Source of the DNA: an uncultured Fidelibacterota bacterium
Lineage (GTDB): Bacteria; Fidelibacterota; Marinisomatia; Marinisomatales; UBA1611
Assembly (NCBI GenBank): GCA_902562835.1
Contig: CACEUX010000006.1
Location: 1-64,000, forward strand
Direction: 5' to 3'
Length of the DNA stretch: 64,000 nt
Below, piece by piece: positions 2 through 14,450 of the stretch (the stretch's first letter is position 1; each line of letters begins with the position of its first letter). Below the pieces are notes generated by a model. That model saw only the letters and a list, made by a program, of their open reading frames with translations. It ran no database searches and was not told the DNA's origin. The position numbers and the translations under genes were made by a program.

Positions 2-712
2 AAAAAGGATATTGTACTTAGAGAGTGGAAAACAAAGGACTATCCTGATGGATCTAACTTAATTGAATATTGGGAATTGGACGAGCCGTCCTTATTCTCC
101 CCTATGAAGTTAATTAGGCAGTTTTTACCAAGTGGTGGTTTTAAGTCAGCAAAAATAGATAAAGAGACCTATGAAGCTATTCTTGAATTAGATGAATTGA
201 TATCTGTGAAAGAAGAAATCTCTGGTTTGATATCTGTAACAGTTTTGATGGAGGATCCAAAGTTAGCCTCCGACATTGCAAATTATATTGCAGAGTATGT
301 TAAGAATTTTATTTCACTAGAGCAAAAAAGGGAAACCTCAAGTAATAAGACCTTCGTAGAGAAACAAATGAAAGAAGCAAAATCTCAAACTGAGAACTCT
401 GAAGATTCTTTGACAGATTTTAGAAAAGATCATCCATTAAGATTGGATACACCCTCCATAGAGATGATGAGAGAGAGACTTGAAAGTACAGTAGAAGAAA
501 ATCGTGCAGTTTATATTACACTTAGACAACAATTTGAGATCGCAAAAATTGATGAAGCGAAAGAAAGGCTTCTAATCAATATCTTAGACACAGCAGAGCC
601 TGCGGTTAAAAAAGCTAAACCAAAACGAACTTTAATCGTTCTCCTATCACTTTTTGGTGGTTTCATATTAGCAATTCCTTTCTCCATTTACCTTGACAGA
701 CGAAAAAGTTAA
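2..712 (+). CDS. Wzz/GNVR-type polysaccharide chain-length determinant protein (5' partial, open to window edge)
   Basis: Frame is open upstream of the listed ORF start at 77 to position 2 (KKDIVLREWKTKDYPDGSNLIEYWELDEPS...). Coiled-coil body and C-terminal TM helix (LIVLLSLFGGFILAIPFSIYLDRRKS) typical of Wzz. Confidence 0.75.
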   Translation, partial: KKDIVLREWKTKDYPDGSNLIEYWELDEPSLFSPMKLIRQFLPSGGFKSAKIDKETYEAILELDELISVKEEISGLISVTVLMEDPKLASDIANYIAEYVKNFISLEQKRETSSNKTFVEKQMKEAKSQTENSEDSLTDFRKDHPLRLDTPSIEMMRERLESTVEENRAVYITLRQQFEIAKIDEAKERLLINILDTAEPAVKKAKPKRTLIVLLSLFGGFILAIPFSIYLDRRKS

Positions 713-1241
713 TCAAAAACATAATTTCTTCTTTAGTCAACGCCTTATAAAGAACTCCTTTTATACAGGATTGGCCTTGGGCTTCGTAGGGATTATTCCA
801 TTTGCATTTAATTTTTTAGTAGCTAGGTCCTTTGGTAAAGAAATTTTAGGATCTATAAACATCACCCTAAGCTTCTGTCTCATAATCACGATCTTTGTTA
901 CAAACTTTTTCGGAAGTGCTGGAAACAAATACCTTGCGGAATACCGTGGTAGCCAGGACTTAGAACATTTTCAATTTGTTTTTAAGATAATGATCGGTAT
1001 ACCGATCATTATCTTATCAATTATTGCTGGGCTACTTTCATGGAACTGGGCCTACATATCCAATAATTTTTCTTTACCATCAAATCTTTTATGGCCTGTG
1101 ATAATTTATATTTTTTTAAGATCATTTTATATCCTCTTTCGGCGAGCCTTATATGGCATTGATCTGGTCAAAGCTTATGCAGTAAATGAAATAATATCTG
1201 TTATAAGCGGTTTTTTATTCTCTTGTATTTCGCCCTTTTGA
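693..1241 (+). pseudogene. Oligosaccharide flippase (Wzx/MATE-like), N-terminal fragment of ~170 aa, apparently truncated
   Basis: N-terminal flippase-like TM pattern (GLALGFVGIIPFAFNFLVARSFGKEILGSINITLSFCLI). Only 182 aa versus the usual ~400-500; the 3' end collides with an antisense HTH ORF. Confidence 0.6.
983..1016. repeat. Perfect 34-bp palindrome without spacer
   Basis: TAAGATAATGATCGGTA|TACCGATCATTATCTTA; each of 17 base pairs checked by hand. Confidence 0.97.
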
Positions 1242-1408
1242 ACTTTTACAAGGCCTCTTTTTTTCAGTTCCGCAATACGGTTTCTTAATGTCTTTTCAGT
1301 TAACCCATACTTTTTTGCAACAGTTGCTCTTTTATTTGGATTATCTATGATCTCAGGATTACCTTTAATGATATTTAATATTTTTTCTTCGTGTGGTGTT
1401 AGTTTCAT
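1175..1408 (-). CDS. Small winged-helix/HTH DNA-binding protein
   Basis: MKLTPHEEKILNIIKGNPEIIDNPNKRATVAKKYGLTEKTLRNRIAELKKRGLVKVQKG has a wHTH pattern. Start overlaps the stop of the upstream exporter gene (TAATG). Confidence 0.6.
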   Translation of the reverse strand: MKLTPHEEKILNIIKGNPEIIDNPNKRATVAKKYGLTEKTLRNRIAELKKRGLVKVQKGEIQENKKPLITDIISFTA

Positions 1409-3174
1409 TATGAAGTGACAATTGTTTGAATGTAAACAAATAGTAGTATGACCTGACCTATTGCTGATATGAGCTCTTTAGCAGCATACCATCTATTATA
1501 TTCTAACTTGTCTGGAACAAAAATAATATCTCCACTTTCTATATTTTGATTCCTTCTTAGTATTAATCTTTGTCCCGTTGTTGATTTAACTATGAACTTT
1601 TTTCTTGATGCATTCTTTGAAATACCACCTGCCATTTTTATATAATCATTTGCTTTATTACCTAAAGAAAATGGATATCTTCCTGGTGATAATATCGATC
1701 CAATGACCTCCACATAGGGGAAATCTCTTGGAACAAAAATAATATCATCTCCATTTACAAGGTGACTGTTTTGGTTATTTCTTGAAGATATTTCTAGTGC
1801 ACCTTTTTCTGTTCTAATTCGAGCTTTTACATAAGCTTTTTCTTCAATAGATCTATTCAATCCATCCTTTAACAATATCCGTTCAAGTTCACGGTCTGGA
1901 ATTTTTATTATTGTACTATTATTTACATATATTTTTGAAGAATCAGCATTTGGTAAAAATCCACCTGCCTCAATTATAATGTCGTTTATCGTTGTTGCCC
2001 CAGTTATTATTGGATAGGAACCAGGATATTTTACTTCTCCAATTATTTCAACGATATTATGTGGATTCTCATTATCAAAGTAAGGAACCATGATATGGTC
2101 TTCTGGAAATAGCTCATAATTTTTAGATTGTTCGAATGAAATATAAAAGGATTCGGAATCTCGCTCAGAGCTAGACCGAGTAATTCTTATACTATCTATA
2201 TTACTATCAGAATGAAGACCTCCCGCGATTAACAGAGCATCAGCTATACTGTCCTTTGCCTTAAACTCATAATCACCTGGTTTTTGTATTCCACCTTTTA
2301 CTGTAAAAGAACGATTTTTATAAGGTATTTTTATTATATCATTTTGCTGTATGTACGGATTGTGTAGTACATCACCAGTAACTTTAAATTTTTCAAGGTC
2401 GACCTCGATCGACTTATCACCTCTTAAAACAATAATATTCCTTTTTGATAAGAGATCAATATCGCTTTTTTCAATATCTTGAGCTATTCCAAGCTTTCTT
2501 TTATAAAAGTCATCAACAGCTAGCCTGGATCTCATTCCAAATGTATCATTATTACCAGATTCACTGCCGCGCGTGCTAAATGAATCTTTTTTCCTTTGGT
2601 TAAAGTCAGAGATGATTTGCTCAAATAGATCAGATACTCTTGTCATCGGTGTGACAATAAAGTAACCAGCATTTGTAAACTGGCCAGATACTAAAACTCT
2701 AAATTGTCTGATAACTTCTAATTCTACATTTATTTTAACGTTCTTATTCCAAGATCTTATTTCTTTTTTTATTTCATTTATTAATTGTTTTAGTGTTAAT
2801 TGATTACAATCTACAATTCCTACTGAAGGAATGAGTAGTCTGCCTGATGGAGATATTGTGAGACTGTGATCAAATGTTTCATTACTTGAAATTATATTAA
2901 TATTGAATTGGTCGCCCGGGCCAACATAATATTCATTGGGGTCAATGGGTTTGTCAATTATGAACCTATCTTGCCTCCTGCCTGTTTTCGTAATTGCTGA
3001 CGTTGTACCTGTTGATTTAGATATTTGTTTTTGTGCTAGCCTTAATGAATTAAGGTCCAGTGTCTGGGTTTTGGACGACCCGCTTATATACACTAATAGT
3101 GCAATTAATTTAATAATTACTTTCATTACTTTGGTCATTCTGTCGAGGTATCGACATGAGACAAGGAAGTACAA
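1408..3174 (-). CDS. Polysaccharide export protein, Wza-like (Poly_export plus SLBB domains)
   Basis: YYVGPGDQFNINI...ISPSGRLLIPSVGIV motif plus repeated SLBB-type segments (VEIIGEVKYPGSYPI, VEVIGSILSPGRYPF). True start may be an internal Met (MTKVMKVIIKLIALL). Confidence 0.85.
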   Translation of the reverse strand: MYFLVSCRYLDRMTKVMKVIIKLIALLVYISGSSKTQTLDLNSLRLAQKQISKSTGTTSAITKTGRRQDRFIIDKPIDPNEYYVGPGDQFNINIISSNETFDHSLTISPSGRLLIPSVGIVDCNQLTLKQLINEIKKEIRSWNKNVKINVELEVIRQFRVLVSGQFTNAGYFIVTPMTRVSDLFEQIISDFNQRKKDSFSTRGSESGNNDTFGMRSRLAVDDFYKRKLGIAQDIEKSDIDLLSKRNIIVLRGDKSIEVDLEKFKVTGDVLHNPYIQQNDIIKIPYKNRSFTVKGGIQKPGDYEFKAKDSIADALLIAGGLHSDSNIDSIRITRSSSERDSESFYISFEQSKNYELFPEDHIMVPYFDNENPHNIVEIIGEVKYPGSYPIITGATTINDIIIEAGGFLPNADSSKIYVNNSTIIKIPDRELERILLKDGLNRSIEEKAYVKARIRTEKGALEISSRNNQNSHLVNGDDIIFVPRDFPYVEVIGSILSPGRYPFSLGNKANDYIKMAGGISKNASRKKFIVKSTTGQRLILRRNQNIESGDIIFVPDKLEYNRWYAAKELISAIGQVILLFVYIQTIVTS

Positions 3175-13542: not shown

Positions 13543-14450
13543 GCGCAGATAAAGAAAAACTCATAGCAGAACTGGTAAACAAAGGTCTTGATGGTGATAT
13601 GGACTCTGTCAATGCCTGCGAGGACAAGATCATTCGCGGAAAGGCAAAAGCAATGATCATGAAAGTTAAAAAAGGGACTATTGAGCGACCGCCAAAGCCT
13701 GAACTCGCTGCAAATGAAAAGATTGATTCAAAAACTCCAGAATCCCTTTCGAAAGATGAAATGATATCTTATCTAGTAAATAAAGGCCTTGATGGCGATA
13801 TGGACACTGTCAATGTCTGCGAGGATAAGATTGTTCGCGGAAAGGCAAAAGCAATGATTATGAAAGTTAAAAAAGGGACTTTGGAACGTCCTGAGATGCC
13901 AATATTGGATTCACCTGTGTCCTCTGGTGAGCCTCTAGAAGACAATACCCAAGATGATGATAAAGATACTTTTCAAAAAATAAAAAAATTGATCTACGAT
14001 AAATTTCCTAACTCCATAATTGAAAATGAAGAGGGGGATTACATTCAGATCAAACCTGATGAATGGAATGAGTTAGCCGTATGGCTCAAATCAGAACCCT
14101 CGCTTTTATTTGACTCACTTCAATGCCAAATGGGAATAGATATAGGAGACGACAATCTTGAATCAAGATATAATCTTCATTCTATGGAACTAGACCACTA
14201 CATCGAGATAAGAATAGCTGTCCCAAGATCTGATCCTAAAATACCATCTGTTGAGCAGGTGTGGAGGATTGCTGATTGGTTCGAAAGAGAGACCTATGAT
14301 ATGCTGGGTATAGAGTACACCGGACACAGAGATTTAAGAAGAATCCTACTACCAGACGACTGGGAAGGCTGGCCACTAAGGAAAGATTATCAAGTACAAG
14401 AAACTTATCATGGCATTGTAGTGCCAAAAATGAAGGAAGGATGGGAGTAG
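13539..14450 (+). CDS. nuoC: NADH-quinone oxidoreductase subunit C with a duplicated N-terminal extension
   Basis: C-terminal NuoC signature ([47 protein letters not shown]); N-terminal ~118 aa contains two copies of a 40-aa module. Confidence 0.93.
13569..13892 (+). repeat. Two-copy tandem repeat within nuoC ([11 protein letters not shown][ST]VN[AV]CEDKI[IV][15 protein letters not shown][IL]ERP)
   Basis: 36 of 40 residues identical between copies; the stretch cgcggaaaggcaaaagcaatgatNatgaaagttaaaaaagggact (45 nt) differs at one base. Confidence 0.95.

Follow-up and report, generated by a model that had tools for sequence, protein, structure and literature searches.

The window, the whole stretch of 64,000 nucleotides that was analysed, is contig C6 of the source genome, that of a marine Marinimicrobia (G000; 1.83 Mb in 97 contigs), taken from the first base of the contig. 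The genes and features at its start are collected in Table 1. The closest relative available for comparison was the MAG bacterium TMED46 (taken to be G001), a sister species with 97.3% identical DNA over positions 1-1206 of the window. No closer relative was found among the GTDB genomes, the others known being distant. In TMED46 and in the relatives G002 and G010 the orthologue of the flippase gene forms an open frame 445 codons long.

Table 1. Genes and sequence features at the start of the window
Feature	Position	Strand	Remarks
wzz-like chain-length/copolymerase gene, C-terminal part (GNVR domain)	2..712	+	extends past the contig start
Flippase gene, 5' part (Polysacc_synt/MatE-like)	693..1200	+	Pfam PF01943 E 1.3e-4, PF01554 E 5.4e-4, both below curated cut-off
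Perfect spacerless 34-bp palindrome	983..1016	.	centre 999/1000; third codon positions pair with third, first with second
Third base of Pro codon CCG	1004	+	T (CCT, synonymous) in TMED46 (G001); breaks the pair with 995
Inversion/chimera junction, microhomology TATCTG	1195..1200	.	left, wzz-flippase in +; right, reverse strand of wzz 5' region
Same wzz gene, N-terminal part (winged-helix-like)	1201..1408	-	opposite orientation, cut by the junction
Polysaccharide export protein gene (Poly_export + SLBB domains)	1408..3174	-	collinear with TMED46

The two parts of the wzz gene are joined in the relatives: in TMED46 and in eleven others the N-terminus and the remainder form one protein of about 400 residues, and in the 11 relatives tested besides TMED46 the fusion is conserved with 62-91% identity over about 400 amino acids. 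The mechanically called ORF at 1175-1408 spans the junction, and the helix-turn-helix gene that it seems to represent is the N-terminus of wzz. Intact wzz genes were located at L017 2940-4142, L018 6345-5146 and L019 1463-2662. The proteins of this Wzz-like family carry a winged-helix-like N-terminal domain before the first membrane helix, for which the Pfam helix-turn-helix matches are weak. A limited literature search found no account of winged-helix Wzz proteins; it would be out of the ordinary for a membrane polysaccharide copolymerase to bear a DNA-binding-like domain. Elsewhere in the window, a coding-like region contains two copies of a repeat of about 120 bp with a spacing of 201 bp (13572-13690 and 13773-13891).

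The sequence at 983-1016, TAAGATAATGATCGGTATACCGATCATTATCTTA, is identical to its own reverse complement, and pairing ends exactly at pair 17. The perfect palindrome without spacer announced in the preliminary description was thus confirmed, as was its translation in the flippase frame, (F)KIMIGIPIIIL. The chance rate quoted there was 4e-6 per 64 kb; by calculation, perfect palindromes without spacer that are 34 bp or longer are expected 3.7e-6 times per 64 kb with uniform bases and 1.4e-5 times at 64% AT, the latter corresponding to 3.9e-4 per 1.83-Mb genome. In 1,315,536 bases sampled from the source genome 983-1016 was the longest perfect spacerless palindrome, the runners-up being three of 24 bp. 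These three, at L029 10873-10896, L070 8633-8656 and L074 1326-1349, each lie in a long open frame. Palindromes of at least 24 bp were in modest excess in the 1.3 Mb of the source genome (4 observed, the 34-mer included, against 0.2 expected) and in weak excess in the genome of TMED46 (1 observed against 0.14 expected). When synonymous codons were shuffled in 1,107 crude ORFs over 60 rounds, a length of 34 bp was never attained, and one palindrome of 30 appeared. The 34-mer is therefore unusual for a single genome, though it would be unremarkable if many genomes were scanned.

The argument from rarity is weakened by the encoded peptide. In the register of 983-1016, Ile codons (ATN) stand opposite Ile or Met (ATN), Gly (GGN) opposite Pro (CCN), and Lys (AAR) opposite Leu (TTR). 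Because of this register 11 of the 17 pairs are set by the peptide K-I-M-I-G-I-P-I-I-I-L, and six wobble pairs remain free. Given the peptide and the codon usage of the genome, at least 16 of the 17 pairs are formed with a probability of 0.010 (1.0%), and all 17 with a probability of 7e-4. By the phase nomenclature introduced for coding repeats (PMC6649704) the palindrome belongs to phase 3, the phase that restricts the protein most. It is a clean bacterial case of a protein sequence that, through the codon register, makes its own gene nearly palindromic, and striking palindromes within coding DNA call for a codon-aware null.

Flippase orthologues were sought in 61 genomes, the source genome included, and found in 13. 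When the codons were aligned, 17 of 17 positions were paired in the window, 16 in TMED46, 9 in G002, 11 in G010 and 4-8 in the nine further orthologues, G019 being at 8. Pairs between first and second codon positions were complete (11/11) in the window and in TMED46, and reached at most 7/11 in the other relatives, this value being that of G002, G010 and G024. Both sides of pair 986/1013 are synonymous positions; the pair is G-C in the window and TMED46 and A-T in G002, G010 and G019. Relative to G002, which is 80% identical over 1.2 kb, 12 of the 34 bases of the palindrome differ. The folding energy at the site followed the same course, being -25.1 in the window, -19.1 in TMED46, -14.5 with a different fold in G002, and -3.8 to -10.9 in the remaining orthologues. 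Since the next relatives show the palindrome neither in their sequence nor in their folding energy, it does not count as a conserved element: comparison of orthologous flippases at the DNA level, proposed in the preliminary description, showed that the symmetry is absent beyond the sister species (4-11 of 17 pairs).

Recurrence within the genome, also proposed there as a check, was not found either. A search of the assembly, whose completeness is about 78%, for further copies of the 17-mer gave none with one mismatch or fewer and a single one with two mismatches; the 21-base core of the palindrome was absent from the viral contigs searched. The 20-bp core, searched in 60 relatives, gave besides the sister species matches with 2-3 mismatches. 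In all four of these near matches that were examined the longest open frame was in frame 0, and three of the four had MIGIP- or IIGKPII-like codons. Relatives without the symmetry and no other genomic copies had been named in the preliminary description as evidence against the palindrome's significance; this is what was observed, except in the sister species. The palindrome is thus real, coding and specific to one lineage.

These results bear directly on the proposal that 983-1016 is a functional site in the flippase gene, whether an operator, a recombination site or an mRNA hairpin. The palindrome is predicted to form a very stable hairpin (in RNA, 15 bp with a 4-nt loop, -25.1 kcal/mol for 81 nt, z -6.5; in DNA, z -7.1), and the sister species has kept 16 of the 17 pairs, both of which would suit such a site. 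However, the structure is absent from every orthologue beyond the sister species, those of G002 and G010 included, the scarcity of genomic and viral copies argues in the same direction, and no run of T follows the hairpin, so that we regard a functional site as very unlikely. Neither the recurrence nor the conservation expected of an operator or recombination site was seen, and the protein-binding or recombination site suggested in the preliminary description, with symmetry confined to the source and the sister species and a 17-mer lacking a second copy, was not supported. An intrinsic terminator was ruled out because the sequence directly 3' of the palindrome, TCAATTATTGCTGGG, is in the open frame and has no T-run. 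That the palindrome is a recently fixed element, an intragenic hairpin or binding site regulating the polysaccharide locus and specific to this Marinimicrobia genus, is more doubtful still and seems highly improbable. It may be a point of cruciform instability, with which the strong predicted hairpin energies would agree; the junction, however, is some 180 bp further on and has a 6-nt microhomology of its own. The same junction, as a probable chimera at this short distance, could raise the suspicion that the palindrome itself was made by fold-back during amplification or assembly. This is hardly credible: TMED46 was assembled separately, shares the stretch with one synonymous difference and has the intact 445-codon frame, so an origin of the palindrome in amplification is excluded. 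With 16 of 17 pairs present in an independent MAG, the fold-back origin suggested in the preliminary description was rejected for the palindrome.

The origin of the symmetry is best discussed from the relatives. Because these reach at most 7 of the 11 protein-level pairs, the ancestor was probably less symmetric than the present palindrome. The symmetry exceeds what independent substitutions would be expected to give: 12 random substitutions starting from the G002 sequence produced at most 14 pairs in 400,000 trials, under a null that has no protein constraint, and when residues were sampled from the family profile the probability of at least 16 pairs was 2e-6 to 4.5e-6 at the site, which was chosen post hoc. 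We consider it fairly probable that the palindrome is a lineage-specific mutational by-product without detectable function, produced by a template switch in an Ile-rich segment; both the switch and the absence of function are what we infer from the comparisons. A hydrophobic, Ile-rich membrane segment that was by accident self-complementary would have served as the starting quasi-palindrome. In the ancestor common to the source species and TMED46, template switching would have occurred at this quasi-palindrome, the polymerase briefly using one arm as template to copy the other and so homogenising the arms. Wobble changes that affect both members of a pair could be ascribed to this step, and the difference between 17 pairs in the window and 16 in TMED46 to one later substitution or one last correction. 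The main rival is pure coincidence, in which ordinary point substitutions under codon constraint completed the symmetry with no template switch. The probability of 16 or more pairs once the peptide is given is not prohibitive, palindromes of 34 bp are expected by chance across thousands of genomes at the rate per genome calculated above, and other Marinimicrobia have near matches to the core that share its frame and encode MIGIPII- or IIGKPII-like stretches, which indicates that such peptides alone lead to near-palindromes. Against this, the ancestral peptide was probably different, as judged from the peptide-level and total pairs of the relatives, and several independent substitutions in the right direction would have been needed; coincidence thus appears rather unlikely, though it deserves to be taken seriously.

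The gene-truncating junction, placed about 200 bp from the palindrome in the preliminary description, is real and has an explanation of its own. When the window was compared with TMED46 (L017 and neighbouring pieces), positions 1195-64000 were collinear in reverse orientation, and 1-1206 matched in forward orientation. In TMED46 the export protein gene is followed by wzz and then by the flippase gene; in the window the stretch that runs from the middle of wzz to the middle of the flippase gene has the opposite orientation, and TATCTG marks the join. Two segments about 1.5 kb from each other are linked in inverted orientation through a 6-nt microhomology near a contig end, and both wzz and the flippase gene are broken, which is the signature of a chimera. 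The 275 bp of wzz between these segments and the remainder of the flippase gene are missing from the source assembly, and the next contig found in the region, C54, restarts about 6 kb further on in TMED46 coordinates. Fold-back chimeras were sought in about 480 kb aligned with TMED46, in which few contig ends were testable, and this junction was the only one found.

The junction is separate from the palindrome and is a probable chimera of displacement amplification or assembly. Polysaccharide loci rearrange often, and as this is the sole nearby inversion in the sequence comparable with TMED46, a genuine chromosomal inversion in the cell or population is possible. It is nevertheless doubtful in view of the two broken genes, the nearby contig end, the short inverted join at a microhomology and the sequence missing from the assembly; moreover, the arrangement fits the commonest class of chimeras formed in displacement amplification, of which 85% are inverted, mostly over less than 10 kb and with 2-21 nt of complementarity (PMC1855051). 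As the junction is probably a chimera, the genes near the start of the window should not be taken as natural truncations; a chimera at a contig end can mimic both a truncated gene and a free-standing helix-turn-helix gene. The interpretations offered in the preliminary description were in this way partly supported: a fold-back type of chimera, which failed for the palindrome, is a good explanation of the junction.

With the inverted chimeras of multiple displacement amplification (MDA; PMC1855051) the junction shares inverted segments less than 10 kb apart (about 1.5 kb), an intervening deletion and complementarity within the range of that class (6 nt, TATCTG); unlike them, it was seen in an assembly, and in one whose source genome may not have been amplified. 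For the palindrome, the nearest parallels are cases of template switching and quasi-palindrome correction. Homogenisation of arms by template switching within coding genes has been documented in S. cerevisiae (PMC8604942), and the origin of a perfect hairpin by one event in RNA genes (PMC8794818). As in these cases, 983-1016 is an inverted repeat that is perfect in one lineage and imperfect in close relatives, several bases of the arms differ, and the outcome at the amino-acid level is conservative. It differs from them in that the arms, 17 nt long, touch without a spacer, and the event is one that we infer across the gap of about 20% divergence between TMED46 and G002. In Nematomorpha mitochondria (PMC6649704) coding palindromes occur in large numbers and reach a length of 284 bp, the longest belonging to phases 1 and 2, unlike the single 34-bp, phase 3 palindrome described here; in both systems, a perfect inverted repeat lies within a protein gene and the same codon-phase classes apply.
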